NCBI RefSeq assembly: GCF_018320785.1
Contig: NC_054872.1
Span: 24,572,769 to 24,636,768 of the forward strand
Length of the DNA stretch: 64,000 bases
Source of the DNA: Cheilinus undulatus
Lineage: Eukaryota; Chordata; Actinopteri; Labriformes; Labridae
Reading direction: 5' to 3'
The notes under the pieces were generated by a model, which was not told the origin of the DNA, made no database searches, and worked only from the letters and a program-made list of their open reading frames with translations. Position 1 is the stretch's first letter. The number at the start of each line of letters is the position of its first letter. Made by a program: the position numbers and the translations under genes. This document shows, in pieces, positions 391-58,380 of the stretch.

Positions 391-1170
391 TTATACCTCA
401 GTACTAAAAACTGACCTTTCAGGATAAGATTTGCCAGCTTCACCTCTGAAACAGTGACCCACAAACACATAGAACAGTGGGTTGAATAAGATTGAAGGTG
501 TGATAGAGGACCCAGCAGAAGAAAAAGCTGATGATAACTGTAGCCATGATCTTAAAGATGTGACTGGACTGGCTGGCCAGGGTGTGGTTTCTCCTGAGAC
601 AATAAAAGGACACAATGACAGTGAACGGGATTATAAATCCCAGCAGGAAGTGGCTGATGATCATGGCTTTAAAATGAAAGTGCCAAAGCTCATCCACAGA
701 CAGAGATTCAAAGTCATACGAGAGGGTAAAGTTGTGGACACAGTGGATGAAGACTCCATCATTAGAGGTGTCCCCGAAGACAACATCTGGAGAGCTGAGA
801 ATCAGAGACAGCATCCAAACACCCAGACTCACACAGGACGCCTTACTCCTGTGGTTCTGAGCCCACATGAGCCACACCACGGACACACATCTGTCCACAC
901 TGATCACAACCAGAATGTAGACACTGGCGAAGATGTTCAAAATGCCGATGGTGGAGGTTGAGGAAACAAACTGTGTTCACTGTTTTCTTCATCTTGAATA
1001 ACATAATCAGATTAAAGCTCCATTCCTGAGCACACTGAGAACAAAGACCAGAGAGTAAACAGAGACATGATGTTCAGAGACTGTCTCAGATTCACATACT
1101 GATCTACATGTTCAATTTCAGTTATTTCAAACATATCCAGATAATCATAAGAGAAAATGAATGTCTGCAT
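391..1170 (-). pseudogene. Decayed chemerin/formyl-peptide-receptor-like GPCR
   Basis: This is a clear relative of the three intact receptors downstream. It keeps an N-terminus starting at 1168-1170, the KMKKTVNTV loop, TM3 with the DRCVSVV motif, WAQNHR, TM4, TM5, TM6 (FFFCW), an NPLFY version of NPxxY and a C-terminal STEV. It is broken in several places. About 130 bp covering TM2 and the first extracellular loop are missing after FLNL, and the frame shifts there. TM1 has a small frame-shifting loss. Two codons are lost after WAQNHR, and about five codons (AVIIH) before LRRN. The end of TM6, extracellular loop 3 and the start of TM7 are gone, again with a frame change, and the cytoplasmic tail is shortened. 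A splice-acceptor-like sequence (CATTGCAG) lies about 20 bp upstream of the ATG, as in the intact genes, so this is a dead tandem duplicate and not a retrocopy. No function is expected. Confidence 0.9.
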
Positions 1171-2290
1171 TTTTGTTCAGGGAGCTGCAATGACAATGGG
1201 GGAAAAAATCATGATTATAACTGCAATAGATATTCATGTTTTAAAAGTCAAAGCCTGTGTTATTGTAGTGTTCTTGTCAAATAAAAGTAGATGGGACTTT
1301 AAATTCCCTGTAAATAAAGTGCCACCCTAAACTTAGTTCAACATAATTATCACTTTTAGGACCAAATGCCTGATATTTGCACAACAAAACTATTCTACAT
1401 CAAACAACTCAATGAAAAAAATTCAAAAAATATTAATGTGCATATGGATAAAAAACCTTGAAATGTAAAAAAAGTAAAAGAATATATTTTAAAATTAACT
1501 GATATAGGATTGAATTTTTCAGCTTGGTTGGTGCCTCTTTAAAAAGAAGACAGGAAATGCTCTATATTATGTCTGTAGCTGTTTTTTTTTTTTCAGGTAA
1601 ATAGCGATGAGTGGATGCTTTTATTAGGTCAGTACAGCTGTTTCTAAAGATAAAGAATAACAACAGTACCTTTAAAAGTTCAGTTGAAGATGTTTCTGCA
1701 GGACAAGTTATCCCACTCAGACTCTGGCACTTTAATGTAAACTCTGCGTTGACTGAGATCTGAAGATGCCTGAAATGAAAACGTGAAATTACCAAATTGT
1801 GGAACAGATTTATGAAGACGCCAGAGGACAGTCACTGGTGAAACTCTAACTCAGCGGATAACTTCACTCATGGTGCAAATGTGTCTAACAACGAAAACAA
1901 CAACAAGAAATCTGACAAAACAACCCCAGCAGAGATCACTGTACAAGAGGCAAAATCTAAACACAATTACACACAGAACACTAGAACACATCTAACACTC
2001 AATACCCAAGTGCATGATGGGAACTCTGTCCACACATCCCATCAGATTTGAAATTTTAGTGTCAAAAACAATCAATCTTTTGTTTTTCAGTGAAACTCAT
2101 GGATGGTATTGTGTCGCAGGGCTCTTTGGATCACTGAAATCAATCTGAGACACCTGTGACATTAGTTTGCCTGCTGAGCCCAATTAAATTGATTGATTGA
2201 TTGATTGACTGATTCTGCCATTGACTCTTGTTTGTTGGTGGTGAATTAGATGATTGAAGTTTGAAGAAGCAAGACATATTGACAATTTAA
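1171..2290. other. Non-coding flank of the receptor pseudogene
   Basis: No convincing coding region is present. The stretch is AT-rich, with a poly-T run near 1581 and a short (GATT)n tract near 2190-2212. It would correspond to the old intron and promoter of the pseudogene, but I could not find the GTATGCC-type donor seen in two of the intact receptors. Confidence 0.5.
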
Positions 2291-2299
2291 CAATTTATT

Positions 2300-2720
2300 C
2301 ATTTAGCAAACAGGAGCCTCAGTAGCTTGTGGAAAAACCATACACAGCCACAACAGCCTGACACCTCCTCCTCATGCTGGTCACCAGCCTGGTCACACAC
2401 TGCTGTGGGATGGCATCCCATTCTTCAACCAGCATTTGTTGCAAGTCAGTCTACGTGAATGTAGCAGGGCCGACAGCACCTGCTCACAGCACCTGGGGGT
2501 ACCAGAAGCTCAAAACAAGAGTCAGCAGCAACAGCAAAATAAGCTGTTTGGCATTGGCAGAGAAGATTTGGCACATTTTTCATGGGCGCAACCCACATAC
2601 TCAGCTCTGCTGCTCATCCCACAAATGCATGTTCCTTACAAATGTGGCATCATTTAAAAGGGTAATAAACAGGCTTTCCAACAGTATAAAATTTATTGCC
2701 AAGGAGCATTGTTACATCAA
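2300..2720. repeat. Probable dispersed repeat, family not assigned
   Basis: The text around 2363-2455 (cctcctcctcatgctggtc, then a GGATGGCATCCCATTCTTC stretch) looks like interspersed transposon-derived sequence familiar from fish genomes. The open frames here (for example 2374-2835) show no domain. I could not find terminal repeats or assign a family. Confidence 0.35.
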
Positions 2721-2839
2721 AGAAATAATGTACCAAACACAGATTTCCTTACTTTTTGTTCTAAGTTTAGTTATGCTACAATGTGCTGATATCAGTAGAT
2801 TAAAAAACATTATCATCTCTGATATAGCTTTTTGAATGA

Positions 2840-4400
2840 CCCATAATGGCCATCTATGTGCAACTTCTACCTGCAGAAACAAGCAGGGTTGGCCTCTACA
2901 AAGTGTGAGTTTACTGTAGTCGCTGGCAGAGCTTAAGTTCATTGAACTCATCCATCCATCAAAACATGCATGGCATATTCCAGTTTGTTTGCACTTACAA
3001 ATTTGACCACTAGGTGGAGCACTGTGGCTGTTGATTCTATTTGGAAGAGTGAAATTGGAATCAGCTCTAGCCCCCTGCTACTCCAAACAGTTGAGATGAT
3101 TGATAAGTCTATTATAATGTGTTGGTCATGTTGGCCACCATTCAGACTGACTTATGAATATCAAAACCAACTAAAAATGCCTGCTCTCTGCACTCAGAAA
3201 GTCACTGCAGCTTTTATTGTGTGGTTCATTGTTGGGTGATTTATCATATAGGGGGTTTCAGTTTTAATTTAAAGGATATAAATGCTGTTTTCTATCAGAA
3301 AAGACAGCTGGAGTAAAACACATTTTTCATCTTTGCAACACTAACCCTGTTACTGGAGCTGATGGTGCAATTTTCACTTATCTGAAGGTTATCTGCCTTC
3401 CGTCTGGCATCCATTCTCAAACACATTATCAGAGTTCCTGCTGTCTTTGGTTTGTTAGAGATAAGATTCCTCTCGGTACTTTCTGTTTTTCCAGATGCTC
3501 CTATGTCACACTGCTTGATGCTTTTTTTAAAATGTGAAAGTCCTTTTGAATTATAAAGAAATAGAGGTATACTGTGTTTCTATACACTGGCAAATACATT
3601 TGATTTTTCAAAGAATGATAATAAGTAACTACTGTAAATAATGAAACATACAGGGTTATGCTTTGTTATGATTTTTACCTTCATCCAACAGTGACAGAGA
3701 GATAGTGCCATTTAAGTAAAAGGTTAACTCTTTGTTAATTCCTCTCATATTCTGGCTTCTAAGAAGTCTGCAGGATTACATTCGAGCATATTTTGGCAGA
3801 ATTGGCCTTTTGCTTTCCAACCACAAATATTTGCCACGCTTTTAATACAATCTCTTTTTGGCCTGCAGACTGAGTGACTGTTGCTGAACTGTTAGTCGGG
3901 TTTGTGTGTGTCTAAGTGTGTGAGAAAATCCTGAAGCAAATCTTCTCAGAGAGATAGAACAATGAGATAGGCTTGTTTCTTTTCAGTTCAGTTTAAAGCA
4001 GAACTTTGAACATTTTGCAACATACTTTGAAATACGCTTTGTCACTCTTTACATCTAAAGAGGTAAGCAATGGGTTACGTTTGTTCTGTGAGTAAACTGC
4101 AAATCAACTGTAGGAATAGACCTTTTTTTGTTTTTAATTCAGGGGTATTTGAACAGCATTCCCTGTGCTCACTTTTTAGCGCTGCACCCTCTGACCTGTA
4201 TCCAGTAGCACTTACTTAGCTGTGTCTCATTCTATCTGACTAAACTCTAAGGCTACATTGGTTCTGTGTGTACCTTGTCAATGATGAATCCCTCCAACCC
4301 AAGACAGAAAGATAGATAATAACTACAGCAAAGTTGGCGAAAACATTAGACTAAAAAAACAGAAAGCTTAGAAGCTCACGTGGCCTGTGCATACTATTTT
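2840..4400. other. Gene-free interval
   Basis: Only short unrelated open frames occur here. I see no conserved domain, RNA gene or clear transposon end. Confidence 0.5.
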
Positions 4401-4404
4401 TTTA

Positions 4405-5240
4405 TTACAAGCGGGCCCTCCAACAGATTTAGCTGGCCCCCTGACAAACCAAGAGAATGAGCCCTCCCCAGTTGTGATTTATCGATGATATTAATTTGTG
4501 TTGGGGGCATGGGTGCTAGCTGTCCTGGCTAACAGTTACATAATTTTGGAGCTGAAAATGGTTTCATGTTATTATTGGGTCTGATGTTGAAGATACTTAT
4601 TTATGCCCCTTTAAACCTCTTTTAACCACTTTTTCAGCCAACTTTTGTCACTTTTATTAGCCGCTGCTTATCGATTTTGAGCACGTTTTACCCAGTTTGC
4701 CCCATTTTACACATTTTTGGCCACTTTATAACATTTTAATCCACTTTTTTCTGCATATTTTGTCACTTTTTACCAATTTTTGCTTCTGTTAATCTATTTC
4801 TGCCACATTCTACTTATTTTCTGCCACTTTAAACCACTTTCACTCCTTTTTTTGTCATTTTCTTTTTCCAATTTAGACCCATTTTTCCTCTTTTAACCTT
4901 TTTTGTTTGTTTTTTGCCTTTTTTTTTGCCTGTTAACCATTTTTCTACTTTGAACCTGTTGTTGCCCCTTTTAATCCTATTTCACCCATTTGTTGCATTT
5001 AAGCTATTTGCCACATTTTGAACCCTTTCCATGTTACCTCTGTTAACCCATTTTTGCCACTATTTACCCTTTTTTTAAAAAACGAATTTTTAATGCCAGT
5101 TTTAACTGCATTTCACTTTTTCTTGCCTCTTGTAACCCATTTTTAATTTTTTTTTTTTTTTTTTGCCTGTTTTCACAATTTTTTAGCATTTTTTGTGACC
5201 TTCCACCATTTATTTTGCTACTGTTAACCCATTTTCACAT
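4405..5240 (+). repeat. Dispersed repeat with degenerate ~20-bp satellite core, copy A
   Basis: A unique head (about 4410-4600, with GGGCCCTCC, GGCTAACAG and TATTATTGGGTCTGATG) is followed by roughly 600 bp of imperfect ~20-bp units of the type CCATTTTTGCCACTTTTAAC. The same head and the same kind of core occur at 15055-15430 and, inverted, at 29930-31620, so this is one family. I do not know its class. The copy ends where a hAT-type terminus begins. Confidence 0.6.
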
Positions 5241-5249
5241 TTCTTTCCT

Positions 5250-5388
5250 AGGGATGCACTTTATTATTGGTCTGGTATCGGTATTGGCAGATATTAGCTT
5301 AAAAGGCAAATATCGGTATCGGCAGATTTCTGCCAAAAACAAAATTTCTGCCAAAAAGTTACATCCGATATTTTGCCTGTGTATTTCA

Positions 5389-5450
<62 letters not shown>
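5250..5450. repeat. Fragment of hAT element (GGGATGCAC terminus)
   Basis: The sequence TAGGGATGCAC followed by alternating TATCGG/GGCAGAT words matches the terminus of the complete hAT element at 13041-14664. It runs into a TA microsatellite, and I did not identify the other end, so this is a fragment or a strongly decayed copy. Confidence 0.6.
5391..5449. repeat. (TA)n microsatellite
   Basis: About 29 uninterrupted AT dinucleotides, directly visible. Confidence 0.97.
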
Positions 5451-5452
<2 letters not shown>

Positions 5453-5920
5453 CGGGGGAGTTTAAGGCTGGACCAACAAACCTATGTCAGTTGAAATCTT
5501 TTTCATTGTTTACTCACATTCTTAAACCTTAAAATGTTTTTAAGGTCTAAAGTTTGTTTTCTTGGTCGTCCTCAAACCTTAAAGTGTGTCCAAAAGGGCT
5601 TCTGTGATCTGCAGCCAGACCCCTGTCATTTAAGATACCTTTTCAATGTACAAACAAAATATTTACAAGTTGTTGGATGATATTTTACTTTACTTTAATT
5701 AATTTATTTATTTTTACCAGATGTATTTAATTAAGAAAAAGAGTTTGACTGAAACAATTACAGTGTTATTTTGTTATTTCTTACAAATAATGAACATTTA
5801 CTTTACTTACTAATCAGACATTATTATGAAAATAACTTTTGTCTTTTTTGATTTCATGGCTGATTCTGATCATTTTTTCTTTTGTGATTACACATTTTGA
5901 CATCTGAAATTTACTTGCAG

Positions 5921-5985
5921 GCTGCACTGTGTGTGGAGGGGGCTGTGTGTGACCCCCAGGCCACCAGTTGCCCATCCCTGGTTTG
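5921..5985. repeat. hAT-like terminus
   Basis: The words GGCCACCAGTTGCCCATCCC followed by TGG are typical of one end of fish hAT MITEs. No matching opposite end was found nearby. Confidence 0.4.
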
Positions 5986-5989
5986 TTTT

Positions 5990-10890: not shown

Positions 10891-11985
10891 TTATACTTTG
10901 GTACTAAGTAATGACCTCTCATTGATCTGATTAGCATCTTCTGTGTTGGAGTTGAAGCGAGAGCGAGAAAGCTCCTCCTGGAAGGCAGCCTCCAATGCAC
11001 TCAAGACTGATTTGTGAATTCTATCCCTGAAATCTTGGCCCACAAACACATACAGTAGTGGGTTCAGACAGCTGTTGAGGAAGGCCAGGCTGGTTACTAT
11101 AGGGGTGCCAATGTAGACGACACTCCCTAATGTCTCATCCGCGTAATTATTCATAGCACTAACCAAGTCAAGTAGAACAAAGATGTAAAAGGGTGCCCAG
11201 CAGAAGAAAAAGGTGAGGATAACTGCTGCGATGATCTTAAAGGTGCGATTGAACATGCGGGTCATCTTGCAGTTTCTCCTCAGACGATGGATTATCACAG
11301 CATAACAGGATACGATGACAGTGAAGGGGACTACAAATCCCAGGAGGAAGCGGGTGATGGTCATGACCTGAAAACGAAACACTACTAACTCATTTAAAAC
11401 TGGAGGATTAGATTCATCAGGGAAGGCAAAGTTGCTGAAACAGCTGATGTGGTTGTCAGAAGATAGTTGAGTGTTCCTGAAGACAAAGTCTGGAGTACTG
11501 AGAACCAGAGCCAGCACCCAAACACCCAGACTCACACAGGACGCCTTACGAACATTACGATGGTTCTGGGCCCACACAGGCCGCACCACAGACACACATC
11601 TGTCCACACTGATCACAACCAGAATGTAGACACTGACGAAGATGTTCAGGGAGTTCAGTGTGCTGTTGAGTTTGCACATGAACTTCCCAAAAGGCCAGTG
11701 GAAATCCAAAGCCAGGTAGGTCACACTCAGAGGCAGAGATACAATGAAGAGGAAGTCAGCCACAGCCAGATTGAGGAACCAAACGGTGTTCACTGTTTTC
11801 TTCATCTTGAACCCGGTCACCCAGATAACAGCTCCGTTCCCGAGCACGCCGAGAACAAAGGCCAGGCAGTAAACAATGAGAGACATGCATTTGAGAGACT
11901 GGCTCAGCTCATCTAATGCAGCATCTGTTGTGTAAGGTGGATCAGCTGTTGTGTTTTCATAGTCGGGTAACGTTGTCATCTCCAT
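10891..11985 (-). CDS. Chemerin/formyl-peptide-receptor-like GPCR (array copy 2)
   Basis: A class A chemoattractant-type receptor of 364 aa with seven membrane segments. The longer open frame to 12018 begins inside intron sequence: a pyrimidine-rich acceptor (TTTTGCTATGCAG) ends just before AGAAATAATGG. The start was therefore set at MEMTTLPDYENTT, matching its neighbour's MEMTTVSLYNNTT. Visible features are an N-terminal NTT glycosylation site, FKMKKTVNTVWFLNLAVADF (loop 1-TM2), the TM3-loop 2 DRCVSVV in place of DRY, WAQNHRNVR, an ECL2 cysteine (HISCF), FFFCWAPF in TM6, NSCLNPLLYVF with NPxxY, and GQDFRD in helix 8. Loop 1 and TM2 resemble CMKLR1 most, while the NPLLYVFVGQDFR end also fits FPRs. 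The tail ends in STKV, a possible class I PDZ ligand. The stop codon adjoins a LINE end, so the native 3'UTR seems displaced. Coupling is probably Gi, by family. The ligand is unknown. Confidence 0.93.
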   Translation of the reverse strand: MEMTTLPDYENTTADPPYTTDAALDELSQSLKCMSLIVYCLAFVLGVLGNGAVIWVTGFKMKKTVNTVWFLNLAVADFLFIVSLPLSVTYLALDFHWPFGKFMCKLNSTLNSLNIFVSVYILVVISVDRCVSVVRPVWAQNHRNVRKASCVSLGVWVLALVLSTPDFVFRNTQLSSDNHISCFSNFAFPDESNPPVLNELVVFRFQVMTITRFLLGFVVPFTVIVSCYAVIIHRLRRNCKMTRMFNRTFKIIAAVILTFFFCWAPFYIFVLLDLVSAMNNYADETLGSVVYIGTPIVTSLAFLNSCLNPLLYVFVGQDFRDRIHKSVLSALEAAFQEELSRSRFNSNTEDANQINERSLLSTKV

Positions 11986-11991
11986 TATTTC

Positions 11992-12464
11992 TCTGCATAG
12001 CAAAACAAAGAAAAACATTTAATTTAGCTCATTTTGAGTTAAATGGATATCAATAAAATTGGGAGAAATACTAAACTATTATTTTATGCTGCTGAGAATG
12101 TAAATAAACTTAACTGAAGCTGTAAAACTCCTCTAACACTCCATGTGTTTTTTCTACCTTTTTTACTTCTACCAAGCTCTAAATTCAGCTGTTCTGTAGT
12201 ATTACCATAAAATTTGAGGCAGCTTAAAGATGGACAGAGCTTTATGACCTAAAGTTTTAACAAGTTTACTGTCCACCTTCTGTTGTTTGAAATAAGCTAA
12301 CAACTGAAGCACAAAACACACAAACCTTTCAACACAAATGGTTATTTTAAGTATAAAGTTTTAAGAATTATTTGTTTAAATTCAAGGTAAGGGTTGAACG
12401 ATTTATTTACATAAAGCTCATTAAAAGACTGCACTGAAGTTTGAAATTCTTTAAATGGCATACC
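11992..12464 (-). other. 5' intron and non-coding exon 1 end of receptor copy 2
   Basis: On the minus strand a donor-like GAGAAAG|GTATGCC has its last exon base at 12464. The acceptor TGCAG starts exon 2 at 11992, giving an intron of about 470 bp. Copy 3 has the same GAAAG|GTATGCC context. Exon 1 lies upstream of 12464 (towards higher coordinates). I found no convincing TATA box there. Confidence 0.6.
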
Positions 12465-16902: not shown

Positions 16903-18009
16903 CTACACCTCTGTGTCATGTGCTGACTTCCCTTTGCTCTGACTGGTGCTCACTGTGTGTGTGTCAGTCTGAGAGCCAGAGTCCTCCTGGAAGGCAGTCT
17001 CCAGTACATTCAGGATGGACTTGCGGACTTTATCCCTGAAATCTTGACCCACAAACACATAGAGCAGTGGGTTCAGGCAGCTGTTGAGGAAGGCCAGGCT
17101 GGTGGTTAAAGGGACCCCGATGGTGATGACATAGTCTAATTTTTGACTCTCATACTCAGTCAGATAATGAACCAAATCAATCAGAGCAATGGCGTGAAAG
17201 GGGGCCCAGCAGAAGAAGAATGTGGTAATGACAGCGGCGATGATCTTAAAGGTGCGTTTTGACTGCCTGGCCAGGGTGCGGTTTCTCCTTACATGATGGA
17301 TTATCACAGCATAACAGGACACGATGACAGTGAAAGGGACTACAAATCCCAGCAGGAAGCGAGTGATGGTCATGGCTTTAAAACGATAGAGCGTCAGCTC
17401 ATACACAGACAAAGATTCATAGTCATCAGAAAGCGCAAAGTTGTTAAAACAGTTGATGATGTCTTTATTCATAAAGGATGGTCCGGTGTCCCTGAACACA
17501 AAGTATGGGGAACTGAGAATCAGACCCAGCACCCAAACACCCAGACTCACATAGGACGCCTTACGAACATTACGATGGTTCTGAGCCCACACGGGCCACA
17601 CCACAGACACACATCTGTCCACACTGATCACAACCAGAATGTAGACACTGACGAAGATGTTCAGGGAGTTCAGTGTGCTGTTGAGCTTACACATGAACTT
17701 CCCAAAAGGCCAGTGGAATCTCAGAGCCAGGTAGGTCACACTCAGAGGCAGAGATACAGTGAACAGGAAGTCAGCCACAGCCAGATTGAGGAACCAAACG
17801 GTGTTCACTGTTTTCTTCATCTTGAATCCGGTCACCCAGATAACAGCTCCGTTCCCGAGCACGCCGAGAACAAAGGCCAGGGAGTAAACAATGAGAGACA
17901 TGATGTGCAGAGACTGTCTCAGCTTCACATACTGATCAATGTACACAGTTTCATTTGTTTCAGATATAGCTGTTGTGTTATTGTATAAAGAGACAGTGGT
18001 CATCTCCAT
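16903..18009 (-). CDS. Chemerin/formyl-peptide-receptor-like GPCR (array copy 3)
   Basis: A 368-aa class A receptor of the same subfamily as its neighbours. The N-terminus has NTT and NET glycosylation sites. TM1-TM4 are almost identical to copy 2 (10891-11985), with the same KMKKTVNTVWFLNLAVADF, LNSTLNSLNIF, DRCVSVVWPVWAQNHRNVR run. ECL2 (CFNNFALSDDYESL) and ECL3 (HYLTEYESQKLDY) differ clearly, so ligand preference may differ. TM5 keeps the ITRF arginine, TM6 has FFFCWAPF, TM7 has NSCLNPLLYVF, and helix 8 has GQDFRDKVRK. The end is DTEV, a class I PDZ-type motif. The start is fixed by an acceptor (CATTGCAG) 14 nt upstream of the ATG and by homology. A Gi-coupled leukocyte role is inferred from the family only. 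Confidence 0.94.
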   Translation of the reverse strand: MEMTTVSLYNNTTAISETNETVYIDQYVKLRQSLHIMSLIVYSLAFVLGVLGNGAVIWVTGFKMKKTVNTVWFLNLAVADFLFTVSLPLSVTYLALRFHWPFGKFMCKLNSTLNSLNIFVSVYILVVISVDRCVSVVWPVWAQNHRNVRKASYVSLGVWVLGLILSSPYFVFRDTGPSFMNKDIINCFNNFALSDDYESLSVYELTLYRFKAMTITRFLLGFVVPFTVIVSCYAVIIHHVRRNRTLARQSKRTFKIIAAVITTFFFCWAPFHAIALIDLVHYLTEYESQKLDYVITIGVPLTTSLAFLNSCLNPLLYVFVGQDFRDKVRKSILNVLETAFQEDSGSQTDTHTVSTSQSKGKSAHDTEV

Positions 18010-18022
18010 TGTTGTTCACAGA

Positions 18023-20438: not shown

Positions 20439-20525
20439 AATAATGTAAAATGGGGAGCAGGTTTAGCTCAGTTGGTAGAGTGGGCATCCACTTACCGAGC
20501 CAATATAGTCCTCAATGCACTAGTC

Positions 20526-20931
20526 ATGTGATTGTCTCTTTGATGGAGATAGTCTCTCCATCAAAGAGACAAAGGACTGAAGCAAACTGTGCAGAAGAGA
20601 GACCTGTCCTCAGATTTGCAAAGCTGTCTGAGCATGCAACGACACCAATGAAGGGCTCAGCTAAAGCAGCAGGATATGACCTCTACAGTGCATATGACTA
20701 CTCCATTGGCCCTCTTGACAAGGCCATTGTGAAGACAGACATTCAGATTGCTGTTCCACATGGCTGCTATGGCAGAGTGGCACCAAGATCTGGACTGGCA
20801 GCTAAAAACTTCATCGATGTTGGTGCTGGAGTTGTAGATGAAGACTACAGAAGAAATGTGAGAGTTGTGCTCTTCAACTTTGGCAAGGAAACATTTGAAG
20901 TGAAAAAAGGTGACAGGGTATGATGTGATTG
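20526..20931 (+). pseudogene. dUTPase (dut) cDNA fragment inserted in the SINE
   Basis: The frame from the ATG at 20544 ([14 protein letters not shown]) to about 20922 reads a cellular nuclear-type dUTPase. It has [48 protein letters not shown] (motif 2 and its neighbourhood), GAGVVDEDY and FEVKKGDRV. It stops after KKGDRV, so the last third, including the glycine-rich C-terminal motif that closes the active site, is missing. Two motif 3 glycines are arginines (DYRRNVRVV for the usual DYRGNVGVV), so it should be inactive. Several normal dut exons are joined without introns, which points to an RNA origin. ATGTGATTG flanks it at 20526-20534 and 20923-20931 as a 9-bp target duplication, and no poly(A) is seen. 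The SPSKR N-terminus argues for a host gene source, not a viral one. Confidence 0.88.
20534..20570. repeat. Perfect 16-bp inverted repeat (hairpin)
   Basis: GTCTCTTTGATGGAGA at 20534-20549 is exactly complementary to TCTCCATCAAAGAGAC at 20555-20570, with a 5-nt loop. The right arm lies in the dut coding start (SPSKRQ). The left arm spans the fragment's 5' edge, as if the cDNA end had folded back and primed on itself. Confidence 0.9.
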
Positions 20932-21599: not shown

Positions 21600-23084
21600 A
21601 ATTATATTTTTAATGCTTAAATATAATTATTATTGTTATCCATGGATTTTCAAATTTACTGATTTACAAAAAAATGTAAAAATAGTAAAGCACATTATGA
21701 TTTCTTGATTAATATGTCAAATTATAGTTATTTACTTGTATTCCTGAACAGAAAAATGAGTTTTAGTGGTTGAATGTTATGCTTGATTCATTTCTGACAT
21801 CTCAGAGAAGCCCAGTGAGCCAGTTCAAATTTGGGTATAAAAAGGTGAATTCAGTTTGAAATTCCTCATTCCTGTTCAAAATGGTAACACATGGAGAGCT
21901 CACTAAAAATGAAAGAGTCCACATTAAAGCACTTCATGATGCTGGATGGTCTCTGAGAGAAATAGGGAAAGACAAAAAAAGTTCTCACAGTGTGGTCAAG
22001 TATGCTTTGGAGTCAATTGCAGAGACTAGTACTTACAAAATGCACCAAGGAAGAGGCAGGAAACCAAAGTTAACTGAAGCAGATGTCAGACACCTCAAGA
22101 TATGAAGTACTAGAGACAGAAGAAAGACCACTGCTGATCTTCAGGCAGAGATGGATGCTTCTAGATCAGAGTCTGAGAAAGTCTCCAGAATGACCATAAG
22201 CAGATGACTGACGGAACAAGGTTTAAAGGGAAGAATAGCTGCTAAGAAGCTACTATTGAGGCCTGCAAACATCCAGAAATGCCTCAGATTTCCAGGGAGC
22301 ACAAACACTGGACTGTTGATGACTGGAAGCAGGTACTCTGGACGGATGAGTCCAAGTTTAAACTCTTCAGTCAGCATTGTCGTGGGTTATGTCCGCAGAA
22401 AAGCTGGAGAACGTTTTGATGCCAGATGCATTACACCCACAGTGAAACACGGTGGAGATTCCATTATGGTATGGGGTTCCATTTGTGGATACGGCTGGGC
22501 AAATGAGTGAAAATGGACGGTATCATGAACAAGAACATCTACCACAACATCTTAGTGCATCATGGAATCCCTTCTGGACTGAATCTGATTGGTTGTGGGT
22601 TCATAAACCAACAAGACAATGACCCCAAACATACTTCAAAGCTGAGCAGAGACTATTTGACCAAGAAAAAGAAATCTGGAATACTGGAACTGATGGACTG
22701 GCCAAGTCAAAGTCCGGATTTGAATCCTATTGAACAAATTTGGGATTTAGTAGATTCAAAGATTGATGGCACAAAAGTTTCATCTACAGCAAGTCTGTGG
22801 GAACAGCTAGAAAATATTTGGAACTCAATAACAAAAGAGACTGTGGAAAAGTATAAAAACAATGCCAGCAAGAATGCAAGCTGTTATCAAGGCCAAAGGA
22901 GGTCATACAAAATATTAAGTTTTTTGGTTATTATGTGTGAAAAAGGACTATTTAGTTGTTTCAGTTTATTTGCCAAATAAATAATAACATTTTTAGTTTC
23001 AAACAAGTTTTTGAAAGATTTCTAAAATATTTATGTTTTCTTGTTTTTGTGGCAGATGGTCTAATAAATTTGTTCAGCACTGTA
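21600..23084 (+). mobile_element. Tc1-like transposon with broken transposase
   Basis: Transposase begins at 21881 (MVTHGELTKNERVHIK) with a helix-turn-helix (ALHDAGWSLREIG) and the RGRKPKLTEADVR linker, then stops at 22105. Later frames give TVKHGGDSIMVWG (about 22440) and QQDNDPKHTSK, WPSQSPDLNPIEQIWD (22507-22980), the second D and the E of the DDE triad. In-frame stops occur near 22104, 22206 and 22507, so it is inactive. The right end reads CAGCACTG|TA at 23082-23084. The left end was not located, so the start given is approximate. It lies inside the long-TIR element. Confidence 0.82.
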
Positions 23085-24999: not shown

Positions 25000-27768
25000 A
25001 TGGCAGTGTAAAAGAATAATCTGATTTTGTCAGTTTGGTTACAAGAATGAAAATTCCATGTTGTTTATTTTCCTCTGCTTTGACCAAAAAAATCTCCAGA
25101 ATTGGGTCACAATTCTCCTTGAGGAGTTGATGGTGGGTCCTGTGAACCAACCAATCAGAACCACCAATCGACAACAAGAGGTCACCTATTTTTATGTTTA
25201 TAGTAATTCCAGTAAAAGAACTATTCCTTTTATATGTATATTTTTAAGGAGGTCCTCATGGAAGCTGTCTCAACTTCCAGATCTCACCTATGCATATCTT
25301 TTACATGCTGGTCTGTGAATTTGAATTACATGTGCAAATAAGAACAATTTCTAGAAATAAATACTGCAATCCATTTCAGCATCAGGGTTAAATGCCTACT
25401 CTAAATATCTGATCATGATAACAACTGACTAATAATCTTCTTGACTGCAGCATCCAGCTGGTACACTTATGAGAGAAAAATAGACTAGAACACAGTGATT
25501 CATATAAAGCCATAAATAGTGCAAACAGATATGAAGCACTGTTTGCACAACTAAAAGCTACAAGTCAATCAGCTGTTTTATTTCCAATGAAACAGTACAG
25601 TGAAACCTTTTCCAAAAAGCACATGAGAAACAGCGCCTCCTGCTGGGCAAGTCTATGATAACAGGCTGAATAGTAGCAACAATAAAAAGTGAATCCTCCC
25701 AACTTGTCATTGATGACACATTGTCTATGTAATTAGATCAGGAATTGTGTATTTGATCAAGAAATACTCAAAGACTCTTTTTGTGTACAGTTTTGTGGAA
25801 AAATCTGGTGATTATTATAGGTTTAGAAAGCAGCCTTAATCACATTTAAATAACAGAAATGATGCTGACCACAAAAACACTAAAACAACAGTTATCATTT
25901 TCATCATTTATTGAGTCAACCATAAACTTAAAAAAATCACAACAGTAAAAACAGACAACAACACTTAATCATTGTTTGTACATAGCTTACATTAAAACAA
26001 GGCTTACAGAGATTTGACATGTTTCATGAGAATAAGCCACATACACTAAAGTCATACTGTACACGTCTTACACTATTAAGCGTTTGATTTATACATGAAG
26101 TGTTGTAAATGCACTGGTAGCACCTTCCAGAATGAGCTAATTGCTTTAACCTTGTTTTGTTTTCAGTAAACTGGACATCTTTGTGTTTTTCTGCTGTTTG
26201 AATACTTACAAGATGCTTGAAGATGCCATCAAGGACACAGAAAACAGGGATGATGATTTTCTTTTTTATCTTTATTTCACCATGTGATTGATGCAAATCT
26301 GATAAAAATAATAGTTTGATTAAAAAAATCATAAAAGTGGATACATTACACTGTCAGATTATACACAAGAAATGCATTCACTGCAGGATGGTGTACCTTT
26401 AACCTAAATGCATCCAGCAGTGATCAAAAAGTCACACTTAAAAATGGTAGACAATGCAAAGCAAAGACATTTCATAACCACTCTTATATATACAGTTGTA
26501 TCAATAACCTTACACCAGCTTGTCAGTAAATAGGTCCTGTGTTTAAGCCACACAGAGAGCTGCACAAAAAAGATATTCAAAGCTCCTGTGAGGATTTATC
26601 TTTTCGTTCTTTGCTGACTTTGTCCTGTATGTTTAACAAAATCTCATTCTGAGGAGAATCTGTGTAGTGGAAAATGCAATAAAAGAGGCTGTTTCTTCAG
26701 CATGCCATTTCTCCCCTTGCCTAACGTCCACCCACAGCTGCCGTTTCAGTTTTTAATCACAACAGGGAAGAAATAATCAGTTTTGTTTTTGATGGTATAG
26801 TTTGCTTTAGTAGGACATACAGAAGCATCGGTATTACTGTTAGCCTTTTTCATAACTAAATAAAAACTCCTCACAGGAGCTTTAATCAAGATTAACATAT
26901 GTACAACCCAAATGAGCTCCACTGAGTGTAGTTTAAACTCTTTAACTTTGTTTGTACATTGAAAAAAACACTGTGGTCACTGTTTGGTTGCTGGGTGGAG
27001 TTAAGTGTGAGGGCAAAAGGACACTTATTCATTAAAAGCTTACCTGTGCAAAAAAGCAAGACACATTATTGTAAGTCAAGAGAAGGTGCTATGCATTTAA
27101 AACTTTATCTTTAACAGTACATGAAGAAAAAACATTACTTTGCTATCATAAATGTATACTTTTGTTACTTGTGTTGAAAAGAATCCAATCATAGATTGTT
27201 GTAATACAGGATACTGGTTTGGCTTAACACATTACCTTGGCATTAGGTGAAGTGTGGCCTCAACAGAGATACTTCTGTGGGACAGTGCAGCCCACAGCAA
27301 GTTGATACTTCATAGACAAATCCTGCCTTCTGATTTTCTTTTATTCTGATTCTACTTAGAAAACATGTCTGCACATGTGGATTAATGTACTTTATATCTG
27401 CCTTCATTTTACTAATAATTTTGGCAAAAGCTGCACAAAATTATTGACTTTCAATGAACACATTCAACCTTTCCATAACTTTTAATCCCATTACACACAT
27501 CACTGATGGATCCAAAACTAATTGATCAATATTACCATCGATCTCCTCCATCACAATGGAGGTACTGTAGGAGGCTGAACTCTACTAGTCCTGAGTGGTT
27601 GGCCAATTACGAAACTTATTTCAGTTAAACTAAACAAAACTGTTCAGTCTCAGGTAATAAATATCTACTGCTCTGGTTCCTCAATAAAAAGCAACAAAAG
27701 CTTTAAAAGATGTTGCTTTTCTTTCTGGGAAAGTTGGAGTGCTTGTGTTTTCATGTCATGGACAAACC
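25000..27768. other. Gene-free interval downstream of receptor copy 4
   Basis: This interval probably includes the 3'UTR of the receptor at 27769-28911. AATAAA on the minus strand occurs near 26270 and 25896, but I cannot choose between them. A segment near 25100-25150 (GTTGATGGTGGGTCCTG) resembles part of the hAT MITE at 35764. No other gene was seen. Confidence 0.45.
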
Positions 27769-28911
27769 TTATACTTCAGCATCAGAAAAAGACTTTTCCT
27801 TGCTCCGACTGGTGATCATTGAGTTTGTGCAGGTGTAAGAGCGAGAAACCTCCTCCTGGAAAGCTGTTTCCAAAACATTAAGGATGGACTTGCGGACTTT
27901 ATCCTTGAAATCTTGACCCATGAACACATAGAGCAGCGGGTTAAGGCAGCTGTTGAGGAAGGCCAGGCTGGTGGCTATGGGGACTCCGATAGTGGTGACA
28001 TGATCCAGTGTTTCACTTGCGTGATTAGCCATGTGATTGACCAGCTCAATTAAAGCCATAATGTGATAAGGAGCCCAGCACAGGAAGAAAGTAGTGATAA
28101 CTGCAGCGATGATTTTAAAAGGCCGGCTTGACTTGCTGGCCAGGGTGCGGTTCCTCCTGAGACGATGGATTATCACAGCATAACAGGACACAATGACAGT
28201 GAAAGGGACTACAAATCCCAGCAGGAAGCGGGTGATGGTCATGGCTTGATGACGAAACTGTCGCAGCTGATTCACAGAAGGGGTTTCGTAGTCGTCAGAA
28301 AAGGCAAAGTTGTTAAAGCAGTTGATGATGTCATCATTATTATATGAGGGTCCAATGTCTCTGAAGATGAAGTACGGAGCACTGAGGGTCAGAGCCAGAA
28401 CCCAAACACCCAGACTCACACAGGATGCCTTACGAACACTCCTGTGGTTCTGAGCCCACACAGGCCACACCACAGACACACATCTGTCTGCACTGATCAC
28501 AACCAGAATGTAGACACTGGCAAACATATTCAAGAAACTTATAGTGCTGTTCAACTTGCACATGAACTTCCCAAAAGGCCAGTGGAAATCCATCGCTGTG
28601 TAGGTCACACTCAGAGGCAGGAATGCAGTGAAGAGAAAGTCAGCCACAGCAAGGTTGAGGAACCAAACTGTGTTGACTGTTTTCTTCATCTTGAACCCGG
28701 TTACCCAGATTACCACTCCGTTACCGAGGACGCCAAGAACAAAGGCCAAGCAGTAAACAATGAGAGACATGATGTTCAGAGACTGTCTCAGCTCAGCATG
28801 CTCGTCCTTATAGTCATACTCTTCATCGTCATCATACATGGAGCCATTTCTTCCACTGGCGTCTGTTGTATTGATGTGGTAGAAAGGGGTAGTTGTCATT
28901 AGATCCATCAT
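27769..28911 (-). CDS. Chemerin/formyl-peptide-receptor-like GPCR (array copy 4, nearest has1)
   Basis: A 380-aa class A receptor with the longest N-terminus of the array. It carries NTT and NGS glycosylation sites and a Tyr/acid-rich stretch (MYDDDEEYDYKDEH) suited to tyrosine sulfation, as in chemoattractant receptors. It has FKMKKTVNTVWFLNLAVADF, HWPFGKFMCK, ISADRCVSVVWPVWAQNHRS, ECL2 CFNNFAFSDDYE, ITRFLLGF in TM5, FFLCWAPYH in TM6, NSCLNPLLYVF with NPxxY, and GQDFKDKVRK in helix 8. The CFNNF and FRDIGPS region resembles CMKLR1 (SCFNNFSLS, VFRDT). The tail ends DAEV, so unlike its neighbours it lacks S/T at -2. The acceptor (CTTACTGCAG) lies 11 nt upstream of the ATG, and MMDLM is the first start after it. 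Peptide or chemerin-like ligand recognition is inferred. Confidence 0.95.
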   Translation of the reverse strand: MMDLMTTTPFYHINTTDASGRNGSMYDDDEEYDYKDEHAELRQSLNIMSLIVYCLAFVLGVLGNGVVIWVTGFKMKKTVNTVWFLNLAVADFLFTAFLPLSVTYTAMDFHWPFGKFMCKLNSTISFLNMFASVYILVVISADRCVSVVWPVWAQNHRSVRKASCVSLGVWVLALTLSAPYFIFRDIGPSYNNDDIINCFNNFAFSDDYETPSVNQLRQFRHQAMTITRFLLGFVVPFTVIVSCYAVIIHRLRRNRTLASKSSRPFKIIAAVITTFFLCWAPYHIMALIELVNHMANHASETLDHVTTIGVPIATSLAFLNSCLNPLLYVFMGQDFKDKVRKSILNVLETAFQEEVSRSYTCTNSMITSRSKEKSFSDAEV

Positions 28912-28921
28912 TGTCTTCAGA

Positions 28922-29502
28922 ACTGCAGTAAGAACAAAAACAAGAGTCAGCCCTTTCAGATTTCACCAATGCATTATCATTCTTGAGGAGTTTTAGGAGG
29001 AAGTTCGAGCTTGTTATCAATTTAAAAATAAAATTAAGTTGTGTTTGTATTCCAAAATGCTCCCACAAATGCACGACTATTGCACAATCAAGTAGAAACT
29101 CATCACGTGCTATTTTGGAGGCAGATTAATAGATTTAATGCGTGTACAGGTATGCTAACGAGGATCAAAGGCTGACATATTTGAATTAGCCTGCACAACA
29201 TGCACGTGCAAACCACGCACTAGCTTCCAGGTGAACGTGAAGAAATGAATGAGATGCGTTCTAAAATCAAACTAACAGGTTTAACTAACTAAAGTAACTA
29301 AAGATCACTAAACAGCACTAAAAAAACCTCTTCCCACACACAGACTTGATTAACATTGGCTCTGAAATATCAAAAGAACCTGAAAAAACGGCAAGCCCCG
29401 TGAAACAAACCGGCTTTAAAGTTTCCCACAACATGTTAAGCCCACACACGATGTTTTAAATAGGTTTCTCTAAGTTTTGTGAGATAGTAAAAGTACAGTA
29501 CC
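28922..29502 (-). other. 5' intron of receptor copy 4
   Basis: Donor GAGTGAG|GTACTG (last exon base about 29502) and acceptor TACTGCAG (exon 2 starts 28922) give an intron near 580 bp. Nothing else was recognised inside. Confidence 0.65.
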
Positions 29503-45376: not shown

Positions 45377-46572
<1,196 letters not shown>

Positions 46573-52278: not shown

Positions 52279-52317
52279 TGAGTCAGCGCGCGCGCGCGCA
52301 ATTCTCAACGTATAAAA
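52279..52317 (+). promoter_or_regulatory. has1 core promoter: AP-1 site, CG run, TATA box
   Basis: TGAGTCA (52279-52285), the AP-1/bZIP consensus, is followed by an alternating GC run (to about 52299) and TATAAAA (52311-52317). A start about 30 bp downstream fits the exon 1 that ends at 52448. Confidence 0.75.
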
Positions 52318-52340
52318 ACGCGCACGTGGCTTCAGCCTGT

Positions 52341-52448: not shown

Positions 52449-53366
52449 GTAGGACAAAAAAGAAACATTTTATCTCTTGTATTTTTGTTTTCTATTGATA
52501 AGTTGTTGATAAATTATTTGTTAAGTCGCGAAAACGTGTTATGACGCAGCACTGGGCAATATATTTAATGTTTGAGATTTATTATTGTATTTTCAAATAG
52601 GATAAGACAATATTGCCTGTATTAATAAAGGTTATCTTGATATTTATCTTTAAAAAAAAAAGCTATGCCTAATGGTCAGTAAAACTGTTGGACAGTAATA
52701 TCATTGTTGAACTCTAGACTATCCATTTGAAATATTTGATCTTATTTAAATATTTTTATTTCATTTATCTTACTTTATTGAATAAAAATTTAAATGTAAT
52801 TTTTTTTAGTTTTCCCTTACTTGTTGACATTGTGCGGCTATGTAAAATTTGGCCCATTTGGATTAGATTTAGGACTAACTTTGTTTGTGTTATTTCTCAA
52901 GAAATGTTATGATTTTTCTCTACATTTTCCTAGCTTTATTATAACGTTTATGCTTTATTTGCTTTGTGACAACAGGGTGTCTTCTTTGTTTTATCTCCAC
53001 CTATAAAGTATAATTTTATAAATTGTAATGTTGCATTTTAAGATTTTTGAAAGCATTGGTTATGTTAAGTAAACAATAATAATTAGATGAACTAAGTGTG
53101 AGTAGTGTTGTTTTAGCATTTTAACTGTGTCATGTGTGATTGGACATTCCTGTCTTGTTACATAACATTTCATACACTTAAAAGCTTTTTCACGGCTTGT
53201 TTCTGTACTTTAAAGTTAACGTGAAAAAATCAATTCAATTAGTAATTTCCCAATCATGCTGAGTTTCTTTGCACATTTTAGTATGATATGACCAATAAGA
53301 ATCCATCGTACTCACTACATTACTAACATGTGTTGTCTTTGTATTTCTCAGAAATCCAAAAACAAA

Positions 53367-56300
53367 ATGGAGCTGAAACCTTTATTAAAAAAGCTGCTCA
53401 CTATACTCCGTGCTGTCTTCACCTTCCTCTTCGCTCTGGTGGTCCTGGCGGTAATGATTTGGGCCTATGTGGCAGGTTACCAGCTGGTCACCTCCCCTTA
53501 TGGAATCATCTCCTTTGGCTTTTATGGACTGCTGCTCGCACTTCACGTACTCGTCCAGAGCTTCTTTGCCTTCATCGAGCACCGGCGGATGAAAGCTCGC
53601 ACAGACGAGGTCTCCTTCACCAAAACTATTGGCTTTACTATCTCGGCGTTCCAGGAGGATCCCATCTATCTGAGAGAGTGTCTAAACTCCATCAGGGCCC
53701 TCAAGTATCCTCCCGAGCTGCTGCGCATCATCATGGTGATCGATGGAAATTCGGATGACGACAGGTACATGATGGACATGTTCAGAGAGGTGTTTGCTGA
53801 CCAGGACCCAGGCTTTTTTGTGTGGGAGAACAACTACCACACATGGGACCCTGCTCAAGCCCAGCAGGGAGTACAAACTGGTTCAGTAGTTGGTCCTGGG
53901 GGGGAACCTGATTATATAATCATAGATGACCCTCAGAGAAAAGAAGTAGAGCATCTGATCAAGACGAAAAGGTGTGTGTGCATCATGCAGAAATGGGGCG
54001 GCAAGCGTGAAGTGATGTACACAGCTTTTAAAGCACTCGGGGACTCAGTGGACTACATACAGGTATCTAGGTTTCTTTTACACTTCATATTTTGGGTGCA
54101 TGTTACCATTCAATCTAATTTTACACAAGAAAATGAATTATTTTATGACATATCTCCTTCTAATTTCACAGGTGTGTGACTCAGACACTAAGCTGGACTC
54201 TATGGCCACAATGGAGCTGGTCAAAGTGTTGGAGAGCAACCAGAAGTATGGTGCTGTGGGGGGAGATGTGATGATCCTAAACCAGAAGGACTCTTACATC
54301 AGCTTCATGAGCAGCCTCAGGTACTGGATGGCTTTCAACATTGAGAGAGCCTGCCAGTCCTTCTTCAATTGTGTGTCCTGCATCAGCGGCCCTCTGGGTG
54401 AGAAAAACAAACCCTTGTGTTTAGTTTGGTGATGATTTTCTAGCAGTGATAGTCATTGTTTGATAAACTTATGTTGGCTTTGTGTTTATGGTTTGTTTCA
54501 GGCCTCTACAGGAATGACCTCCTCCAGCAGTTTCTGGAGTCTTGGTACAATCAGAAGTTTTTGGGGACTCACTGCACGTTTGGGGATGACAGACATCTTA
54601 CCAACCGCATGCTTAGCATGGGCTATGCCACAAAGTAAGACGCTATTAATAGTCTTCCCAATTTCAGCATTTCAGACTTTAATAAAAGCAAAAATCAGAT
54701 GATATTGATACCCACAGCAATGGATGTCCCAGACACTCAATACTGGATGAAATCTTGTTTTTTATATCAAAAGGTGTAGACACAGTCCTGCACACTGTAA
54801 AACTTTACCTATAGACCCTGGCTTTTATTTACTTCGGTCTGTAAGTGGGGTTCAATCCACCAGTGATATATGCATATTTTCAATTTGTGCATCCCCTGCT
54901 GGAAATGCCACAAATAAGAAAATAGATACAACTAGAGCTGTCAAATTTTTTCATTAACTTTGATTAATCACCTGGGTGGAAAAAATACAATTTAAAATGT
55001 ATGCTGCAAATCTTTGTCATCACACAACCTGCTAAAATAGCTTTGTAACTTTGATTGGAACACGGAAAAATTTCTCTACCCTTTATTTTTTTAATTTTAT
55101 GGATAAAATCCATATTCTACGGATAAATCCCATCCTGGATTGACTCGTAAGTGGACAATCTGTCCTCTGTCCTTCTCCTGTTTCAAAAGTGAATAGAAAG
55201 TTAAGACATGACCTTTCTAATACTGTTATTACTACTATTATTATTAAATCTACCAGTATTGCAATCTTTCTCAGATTATCACCATATGTGATTAATTGCA
55301 ATTAATTAAAAAAAAAGCCTATAATTAATAAGATTCATCTTTTTAATCCACTTACAGCTCTAAATAAAACACAAATTATAGCAACAAAGTTATAATGTTT
55401 GGAGGTGGAATAGTTGGCGCATTCATTAAAGGAAAGTGCAACTTTTTGCAGTGGAAACACATTTAGCAAATAAAAAGTGACATCTAATAAGCTCATGTTA
55501 GCCACCAAGGCTGAGACCGGGACTCTTCCAAGAGCAAAAGTTGTTCAAAACTCTCAATTTCCAATGATAAAATCCTTCTTTTTGTTTTGATCTCTCTCTG
55601 ATTCTTCCAGATTATAGGCTATTGATGATAATGCAGCGTAGCGATAAGCCCTCACCGCCTATTGACTTCTAATACAAACATGCACTCACATTTTCTTATG
55701 CAGAAGTTTTAAAGATTTTTTAAACTTATTTCAACACATTTGAATGGAAACCCCACTAATGAATTTACCCTGACTTTATTTGGGACATGAGTAAATGCAA
55801 GCCAGACCTTTAATGATTTTCAGACTAAACTTGTGCACAATGAAAACAAGAAAGACTTAAATTGTAAAATTGCATGGATATGGATGACAATTTATATTAC
55901 ATTGCCAATTTGCTTTTTATGACCGTTAACCAGCCTGCAGCATGGCTGTCACTGTATTCTGTCTTTCTTGGATGGATGTTGAAGTTTAAGTTTAATTTTT
56001 ATGTCTTGCTGCTTTCATCCCTGTTTGTGATCTATAAACAATTTTATGCAGGCAGAATTTATACCTGCCCCTGTTTCTGAAAAAACATGCAACACCAGGC
56101 TCGTATGAGGGACCTTAAACATAAATGGGATTTCATTTGAAAGTTCAAGACAGTTGTACAAATGCAAAAATATTTGTAAAATTTAAACAGTGTAGAGATG
56201 AATGCTTGCTATTTTTGATGGATTTATTCCCTTTAGCAACATTCTTATTTTAAATATCTTTAGATACATACTTTTTAGATTTAGCACTCTTTGATACTAT

Positions 56301-58380
56301 CAATAATTAAAGCAACAAAGGCTGTATCACTTCAAAACAAATTATATCCAAAAGCATGAAAGTACCAGTGATTTTTGACAGGTTTCATTTTTGAATTTTG
56401 GATTTTGGAATTTCCCCTTATGGGACTTATAAAGGAATATCTTATCTTAATTATTAACAGAAATGTTCATGTTGTGCTATTAATTCTAATACTTAGACAT
56501 ATAAATTTGACTTTTGTAGACACATTACTACCCACACTGACTACAGTAGATCGAGGAAATATTTTAGTTGACGTTAGGGTACTCTGAATTTTAGTCCTTA
56601 ATTGGGCTATGTTCAGGATGTATTTTGGAGCCATAAAAGTAACAGAGAGAACATAATAAGAACAGGCTACTATACACTAAAATCAGTGACTCTGTCAAAT
56701 GAGATGGGTGACCTTGAGAGTGCTCATAAAACAAAAAAACTTGCTAAGACTGTTCTAGAAGGGGCATTTCTCCGTATACAGCCCCCTGTGAACGGGGTCT
56801 CGTTTTAAACCATAACACTGTTCTTTTCCAGCGCAAGTGTAAGCCCATTCAGTGCTTCTGTTTCAAAGAGCCGTTGCAATGGAAAATGCTTCATCCTGTA
56901 AAAGTATTAACAGGTGTCTAAGATTGCTTTCACATTTGCATTGTTTAGTATGGACTATCTGACTTTTCTGTTTGATCCGAACCTAAATGAAAGGTAGAAA
57001 TCTCACCGAACCATGGTCTGGACCAAACAGCCGGACCTTGTTCCGATCAAATGAGGTAAACATGGTCCAGACCAAACCAATGGAAGGTCTGGTTCATACT
57101 CAGTGTGAAAGTGTTTTTTGAAAGGTTCATACCTTAGTGTCAGTGATGAAAAACTAAGGCATGGGAACCAGGAAAAGGGAATCCAACACCAAATCAAAAT
57201 GAGCAGAGAAGCACATGGACAGAAAAGGACACCAAATGTCTTATTGACCTTTGTTCTGATGAGGTTATTAGGGGCCAACTCGAAAATACACAGAAAATAA
57301 TGGAAACGTTTTAACTGTTTTCAGTTGTAACTGAAAAAAACTAATACTGGCATTTTAAGTTTTATGAACTTTCTTTGTTTCTTTGAATTTTATATGTTCA
57401 AAGAGGATTGTTTGCATTTTTATTTGGAAAATTCATGTAAAAAAATACTGTGTAACGTGTATTTGTGGAGAGCCTTCACTAGTGCAACAACATCTTAATT
57501 TTTGGGGGCAATAGGTAATGGTGACAGAATGGTTCATTTACTGGCTTCCTTTTACATTTATCTAGGGCCGATAGTGGTATGACTCTACTTATCATCATTG
57601 TGCAACAAAGTGATATCAAACAGCTATCTTGTGGGTGTGTCTGTGCTGACTTGCTGAAAATTTCAAGGCTCTTCTTTCTTTCTTGTCTTTTTTTTATTTA
57701 ATAGATACACGGCCCGCTCTAAGTGCTACACAGAGACGCCTGCTCAGTTTCTGCGCTGGCTCAACCAGCAGACCCGTTGGACTAAGTCTTACTTCCGCGA
57801 GTGGCTCTACAACGCCATGTGGTGGCACAAGCATCACCTCTGGATGACCTACGAGTCCATCGTCTCAGGTATTTTTCCCTTCTTTGTTACCGCCACCATC
57901 ATCCAGCTGTTCTGGACTGGCACGCTGTGGGACATCCTGTGGATTCTGTGCTGCATCCAGCTGATCGGGCTGGTGAAAGCGGCCTACGCCTGCATTCTGC
58001 GACGGGACTTTGTGATGGTGTTCATGTCCCTGTATTCAGCTTTGTACATGACCAGTCTGCTGCCAGCTAAGTATTTCGCTATTCTCACCATGAACAAAAG
58101 CAGCTGGGGGACATCGGGCAGACGTAAGATTGTGGGGAATTACATGCCTCTCCTTCCTCTGTCAGTGTGGGCGGCCATTTTGTTAAGTGGGATGGGTTAC
58201 ACAATCTATGAAGAGAGTCAGATGAACTGGTCAACTGAGGCAAAGAGAGAAGAGATAAAGTTTCTTGTCTTTGGCTGTGTGGCATATGCTTTCTACTGGC
58301 TGTTTATGATGTGCCTGTACTGGGTGTGGTTTCGAGGGGCAATAAGAGTACGTACTAAAAGTTACACTCTGAATGTGTAG
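53367..58380 (+). CDS. has1: Hyaluronan synthase 1
   Basis: Coding exons 53367-54062, 54172-54397, 54502-54634 and 57705-58380 join in frame to 576 aa, close to human HAS1 (578). The product is a plasma-membrane GT2 enzyme that polymerises UDP-GlcNAc and UDP-GlcA and extrudes hyaluronan. N-terminal membrane segments lie near residues 12-33 and 46-70. The catalytic part has VIDGN (124-128), [13 protein letters not shown] with DxD (235-237), GGDV (262-265), [17 protein letters not shown] and QQTRW (373-377). About five hydrophobic segments follow, from near 390 to 560. HAS1 is chosen over HAS2/HAS3 because of [34 protein letters not shown] and [19 protein letters not shown], all closest to HAS1. 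The ATG follows the exon 2 acceptor at 53351. The frames at 53328 and 53330 start inside the intron. Intact. Confidence 0.96.
54925..55370. mobile_element. hAT-like MITE in has1 intron
   Basis: TAGAGCTGTCAAATTTTTTC (from 54933) and an inverted TAGAGCTGTAAG (ending 55362). The flanks GATACAAC and AATAAAAC share 6 of 8 positions. The interior includes GATTAATCAC / GTGATTAATTGC near opposite ends. Confidence 0.65.
56928..57115. repeat. Possible MITE in has1 intron
   Basis: GCTTTCACATTTGCATTG near 56928 and GAGTATGAACC-type words at the other end (GTTCATACTCAGTGTGAAAG) show weak inverted similarity. GTCTGGACCAAAC / GGTCCAGACC words recur between them. Low certainty. Confidence 0.35.

Follow-up and report, generated by a model that had tools for sequence, protein, structure and literature searches.

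The stretch of DNA analyzed here, henceforth the window, comprises 64,000 nucleotides of the Cheilinus undulatus genome (C8:24572769-24636768, in an assembly of 1.17 Gb on 46 contigs) and contains a tandem array of chemoattractant receptor genes of the chemerin and formyl-peptide receptor (FPR) family, together with a gene for a hyaluronan synthase (HAS) that is probably has1. The array consists of three intact receptor genes, referred to as P0001, P0002 and P0003, and a fourth copy in decay. The positions of these features are summarized in Table 1.

Table 1. Features of the window, with positions counted from its first nucleotide.
Feature	Positions	Strand	Remarks
Fourth receptor copy, decayed (pseudogene), nearest to P0002	~440-1199	minus	Pfam 7tm_1 65 bits, partial domain
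Receptor P0001, intact	10891-12018	minus	375-residue open frame; Pfam 7tm_1 183 bits
Receptor P0002, intact	16903-18015	minus	370-residue open frame; Pfam 7tm_1 184 bits
Segmental duplicate stretch	26500-29155		left end approximate; pieces 91-93% identical to C1:6714409-6718831
Receptor P0003, intact	27769-28962	minus	397-residue open frame; Pfam 7tm_1 190 bits
Probable has1, coding exon 1	53367-54062	plus	
Probable has1, coding exon 2	54172-54397	plus	acceptor CAG at 54171, donor GTGAG at 54398
Probable has1, coding exon 3	54502-54633	plus	acceptor CAG at 54501, donor GTAAG at 54634
Probable has1, coding exon 4	57705-58380	plus	acceptor TAG at 57704; stop codon ends at 58380

Each of the three intact genes has a single coding exon, and immediately 5' of the ATG there is an acceptor-like site, which is found in the pseudogene as well; in P0001, as read by eye, an acceptor-like CAG directly precedes the likely start MEMTTLPDY. 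Their 7tm_1 (class A, rhodopsin-like) domains score far above the Pfam cut-off of 30.5 bits, and the class A signature can be read directly from the proteins, namely DRC after the third transmembrane segment (TM3), CWAP in TM6 and NPLLY in TM7. Within the array, identity is 69% between P0001 and P0002, 73-74% between P0002 and P0003, and 64-65% between P0001 and P0003. The pseudogene matches P0002 in BLAST pieces at 482-955, 939-1082 and 1060-1128, spread over three frames, and its alignment to P0002 reveals a net loss of approximately 100 bases between TM2 and early TM3, as well as of most of the sequence 3' of TM6. No further array copies were detected within 100 kb on either side (tblastn, E 0.001). 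As a separate observation, P0001 and P0002 are 92-98% identical across P0002 residues 35-154, as compared with 52-92% elsewhere, and their synonymous divergence (dS) in TM1-TM4 is 0.07-0.11; gene conversion between these two neighbors is possible.

The four exons of the hyaluronan synthase gene together encode a protein of 576 residues, whose top match among the five PDB sequences listed is Xenopus HAS1 (813 bits), no other of the five being a vertebrate HAS. A genome search revealed two other HAS loci, at C9:36.68 Mb and C8:15.12 Mb, and at both of these protein positions 265-564 align in one piece, as opposed to being divided among three exons in the window. In a tree of five HAS sequences, HAS2 and HAS3 form a group apart from the window gene and the two HAS1 sequences (support 100/100), while forcing the window protein beside HAS2/3 in the same tree was not rejected (P value of the approximately unbiased test, p-AU, 0.151). 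Part of the window protein shows near-equal BLAST identity, 62-63%, to human HAS1, HAS2 and HAS3, a comparison that names no paralogue. Based on the split in the tree and the divided 3' coding exons, we consider it likely, if not proven, that the window gene is has1, and refer to it as such below.

All four receptor copies lie on the same side of has1, at approximately 24, 35, 41 and 52 kb from its start codon (P0003, P0002, P0001 and the pseudogene, respectively). The initial annotation had counted four receptors within 25 kb of has1. The linkage itself is borne out, with the nearest copy alone falling inside that distance, and the four receptors amount to three intact seven-transmembrane genes and a pseudogene. 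To the left of the array, there are five large single-frame open reading frames for C2H2 zinc-finger proteins, four of them above the Pfam cut-off (two were scanned partly). These left-flank zinc-finger genes (L009-L017) sit 17-100 kb to the left of the window. According to Saraiva et al. 2015 (PMC4480006), the neighbors of zebrafish fpr1 are has1 and a cluster of zinc-finger genes, as is also the case in mouse. The order of has1, receptors and zinc fingers found here agrees with the order published for these two species. In other words, the has1-fpr neighborhood has already been published for zebrafish and mouse, the zebrafish neighbor of has1 already carries the name fpr1, and the idea of such a neighborhood is not new. 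In the literature searched, we found no other papers linking HAS1, FPR and fish.

Can the zebrafish gene be connected with the array by anything other than its position? Saraiva et al. give primers for zebrafish fpr1 that encode the peptides SVAELT (forward) and VRKSIL (reverse) (PMC4480006). Among the 22 sequences compared, VRKSIL is found in exact form only in P0002 and P0003. What is more, the reverse primer agrees with the DNA of P0002 in 18 of 20 bases at position 17010, which is the homologous place, and in 6 of 6 residues; elsewhere the agreement is 16/20 in a related copy on contig C1 and 11-13/20 at five other loci of the family. The forward peptide corresponds to SVYELT in P0002, with 5 of 6 residues the same. 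Among the loci compared, the reverse primer fits best at this array, and on the basis of two primer sites and the linkage, the published gene very likely belongs to the array's group. The two neighborhoods are alike in that the receptors adjoin has1 and zinc-finger genes; they differ in that a single gene is reported in zebrafish, as opposed to three intact genes and a broken one in the window.

Sequence comparison indicates that part of the array is copied away from has1, to C1. Namely, the gene at C1:6717479-6718570 shares 92.8% protein identity and 94% DNA identity with P0003, and the duplicate stretch listed in Table 1 is matched there in ordered pieces, non-coding DNA included. Pieces resembling P0002 lie at C1:6711650-6712160 and C1:6726704-6727159, with a stop in two of three pieces, and the region C1:6711650-6727159 has the appearance of a partial duplicate of the array, made up of a single intact gene and fragments. 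On C1 we found no HAS match, all eight matches at E 1e-5 or better being on C8 or C9. The proposal of the initial annotation that fish receptors be named by locus is weakened by this near-identical part of the array without a HAS match: position alone would give different names to near-identical genes. In this sense, the C1 duplicate is a caution that position is no safe naming rule.

In human FPR1, the formyl group is gripped by D106, R201 and R205, as described in a published study (PMC9445081). In an alignment, the positions 106, 201 and 205 of FPR2 (D, R and R) correspond in the four intact copies of this genome to S, S, F and F at the first, M at the second and R at the third; D106 and R201 are thus absent from all four, and R205 is kept. 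The latter residue is also present in CMKLR1, C5AR1, C3aR and GPR33. Human FPR3 has D, F and H at the three positions; the motif therefore marks formyl sensing and not the clade, and its absence counts against strong formyl sensing and not against membership in the FPR clade. With two of the three formyl-binding residues of FPR1 missing from the pocket, a chemerin-like or other peptide is a likelier natural ligand than a formylated one.

The ratio of nonsynonymous to synonymous substitution rates (dN/dS) is 0.25-0.58 among P0001, P0002 and P0003. Between P0002 and P0003, the membrane segments, which we delimited by eye, have a dN of 0.04-0.12, as against 0.24-0.33 in the N-terminus, the second and third extracellular loops (ECL2 and ECL3) and the C-terminus, the exception being ECL1, which has seven residues and a low dN of 0.06. 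Such a pattern of outer and membrane parts is as expected if the choice of ligand diverges. Taken together, the motifs, the form of the genes and the purifying selection suggest functional chemoattractant receptors that couple to Gi, where Gi coupling and leukocyte expression are suggested by the family. The N-terminus of P0003 is acidic and tyrosine-rich; like that of human GPR1, it would fit a basic peptide or protein ligand. The picture that we propose is the following: by analogy with the family, a leukocyte receptor coupled to Gi would direct cell migration in response to an attractant, either a peptide or a protein; ligand specificity would reside in the variable N-terminus and in ECL2 and ECL3, with the membrane core kept by purifying selection; and the array would, most likely, given the linkage, occupy the ancestral position of the FPRs.

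What do other members of the family in this genome say about the identity of the array? A genome-wide search with P0002 as the query, in which 111 of 526 candidates were scored, yielded relatives at E<1e-50 in at least eight places (the array, C1, C5, C15, C17, C22, C2 and elsewhere on C8) and, among the matches listed, weaker ones such as a cluster on C16. Besides the array itself, our trees took in five of the other places and the intact C1 copy, leaving out the C22 and C16 relatives, and the CMKLR1 and C3aR sequences in them are partial. The distant sequences L008, L041, L042, L044, L045 and L046 entered the 20-sequence tree only and were dropped from later ones, while L001-L007, L031, L032, L035-L040, L043, L047 and L048 are in no tree. 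In these trees, a gene on C15 (L051) joins human GPR1 (support 100/98), a gene on C2 joins human C5AR1 (96/91), and the genes on C5 and C17 form a pair (99/99). We therefore reject an identity of the array with GPR1 or C5AR1, whose positions in the tree are occupied by these genes; before L051 was included, a union of the array with GPR1 was not rejected (p-AU 0.357, 17 sequences). Another relative with an open frame, L029 (C8:24845066-24845974), lies approximately 208 kb to the right of the window, is 39-44% identical and is unplaced in the trees.

As for cmklr1, we take WSCD2, CMKLR1, FICD and SART3 to be neighbors on human chromosome 12. The four genes appear in this sequence for that chromosome in a table from a genome-wide association study (PMC13409549). 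The single Fic-domain match in the present genome, which we take as FICD, is found at C5:5129194-5129484, 70 kb from the C5 receptor (L050), and this proximity makes L050, judged by its place in the genome, the leading candidate for cmklr1. In the tree of 22 sequences, human CMKLR1 falls beside the C5/C17 pair, if weakly (64/56). A search for SART3 (PF05391) gave no match in the genome, which is uninformative as the model of 19 positions matched no control either. The array is not beside FICD, and with the FICD match on C5 we do not favor it as the cmklr1 locus. An outcome that would have spoken against the initial annotation, i.e. an array placed firmly inside a CMKLR1 or GPR1 clade having its own separate locus, did not materialize: the array is placed firmly in neither clade, and the likely cmklr1 (by linkage to FICD) and gpr1 (by the tree) are found elsewhere. 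None of the best trees produced a union with the FPRs.

In our view, it is probable that the array arose by tandem expansion in this lineage and consists of chemoattractant receptors linked to has1, which are very likely co-orthologues of the gene published as zebrafish fpr1. Their ligand is probably other than a formyl peptide; by linkage, the array most likely occupies the ancestral FPR position, and part of it was copied to C1. Still, several points weigh against this view. The forward primer fits poorly, with 13 of 20 bases at the homologous codons of P0002, and its best match in the window (16/20, at 788) is in a different place; R205 is retained, and other residues could bind the formyl group; the deep branching order is not settled by the trees; and linkage in other species rests on one paper, covering zebrafish and mouse (PMC4480006). 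Moreover, orthology of the array to the mammalian FPRs is not established by sequence alone.

It is nevertheless possible, even if we lean against it, that the array is truly co-orthologous to mammalian FPR1-3 and GPR32, with fast divergence of the FPRs and a formyl pocket of later date hiding the kinship. The linkage to has1 and zinc-finger genes in common speaks for this, as do the other loci of the likely cmklr1 and of the gpr1 relative and the long stem of the FPRs (0.83-1.53 in several trees). The array forms its own clade in each of six trees (98-100% bootstrap), but in no best tree does it form a clade with FPR1-3, and imposing that union lowered the log-likelihood by 1.6-11.4 in seven tests. 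The corresponding p-AU values were 0.206 (17 sequences), 0.392 (18 sequences) and 0.077 (16 sequences) and, without and with GPR32, respectively, 0.264 and 0.456 for 19 sequences and 0.051 and 0.108 for 22 sequences. In particular, the higher values with GPR32 can be read in favor of co-orthology and the values of 0.077 and 0.051 against it. In the tree of 16 sequences, a group that excludes the FPRs (89/92) unites the array with CMKLR1, GPR1, L029 and the pair from C5 and C17; the identity of the array to FPR1-2 is 38-43%, as opposed to 46-50% to CMKLR1. On such evidence, FPR orthology appears somewhat disfavored, yet never firmly rejected (p-AU 0.051-0.456). A published phylogenetic study characterizes the branching around FPR and GPR32 as "especially blurred" and describes a large set of gar and fish genes around si:dkey-117a8.4, near GPR33 and CMKLR1, as "of ambiguous positioning" (PMC6504862); this set may be the array's group. 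The suggestion of the initial annotation that shared linkage implies descent from the same ancestral block as the FPRs is supported in part: the linkage is real and the zinc-finger genes match the published arrangement, but a union with FPR1-3 is absent from all of the best trees. Overall, human FPR1, FPR2 and FPR3 resemble the array in belonging to the same receptor group, in the has1 linkage of their mammalian loci and in the R205 of FPR1/2, and differ from it in D106 and R201 and in their place in the best trees.

An origin of the array from a cmklr1-like gene, which would have arrived beside has1 independently of the mammalian FPRs, strikes us as unlikely. By sequence alone, human CMKLR1 is indeed nearest, in line with the initial annotation: it is the closest solved receptor, scoring 300 bits with P0002 in the PDB, ahead of a C3aR chimera (267 bits, in two stretches), FPR2 (266), GPR1 (252) and FPR1 (250), and, in the set compared, its best match is P0003, whose best match outside the array is in turn CMKLR1. 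Two early trees united the array with CMKLR1 (80/86 with 20 sequences and 63/81 with 17), and this union, although absent from later best trees, is not rejected in them, with p-AU values of 0.416 (19 sequences), 0.225 (22 sequences), and 0.44 and 0.253 (reduced sets). However, human CMKLR1 has another chromosomal position, the receptor next to the FICD match being on C5 in this genome, and the C5 gene and its C17 partner, with which human CMKLR1 groups, if weakly, are better candidates for cmklr1 by position; what is more, the has1 linkage in mouse and zebrafish would require coincidence. Finally, chance as the source of the has1 linkage is highly improbable: near copies on C1, where we found no HAS match, do show that these genes are mobile, but the chance that a relative at E<1e-50 lies 25 kb or less from any given gene comes to approximately 0.03% by our own arithmetic (at least eight places in 1.17 Gb), and it is on these numbers and the same neighbor published in zebrafish and mouse (PMC4480006) that we reject it.

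One may go a step further and ask whether the has1-linked fish receptors are unrecognized FPR co-orthologues with a pocket like that of chemerin receptors, in which case an older peptide receptor would have acquired formyl sensing by D106 and R201 on the tetrapod line, once fishes and tetrapods had separated. We regard this as doubtful. The names "fpr1" and "cmklr1-like" are used loosely in work on fish leukocytes, and if the has1-linked genes are without the formyl pocket, a different receptor may be at work in fish experiments with formyl peptides. This would fit a published result in which phagocytosis in the presence of compounds linked to fMLP was higher in zebrafish neutrophils with human FPR1 than in those with the native receptor only (PMC6465576). 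The locus is mainly of interest as a caution in naming and as a testable case for the time of origin of formyl sensing.

Some further features of the region should be noted. Within the window, a single-frame stretch at 20444-20923 is dUTPase-like (Pfam dUTPase, 113 bits, positions 2-96 of 129) and is perhaps a retrocopy, a remnant of a DDE transposase lies at 22507-22980 (Pfam DDE_3, 31 bits), and a trypsin-like exon (75 bits) at 45848-46225 is situated between the array and has1. To the right of has1, a resemblance to an izumo exon, noticed by eye, was dropped, as Pfam gave nothing and the PDB a single weak match to an unrelated protein. On the same side, approximately 96 kb from has1, there is an exon of the BTG family (L028:436-825), followed at approximately 103 kb by an SK-channel exon (L028:7052-7513; Pfam 33.9 bits against a cut-off of 31.8), for which KCNN4 tops the PDB list at only E 0.29, level with an unrelated protein.

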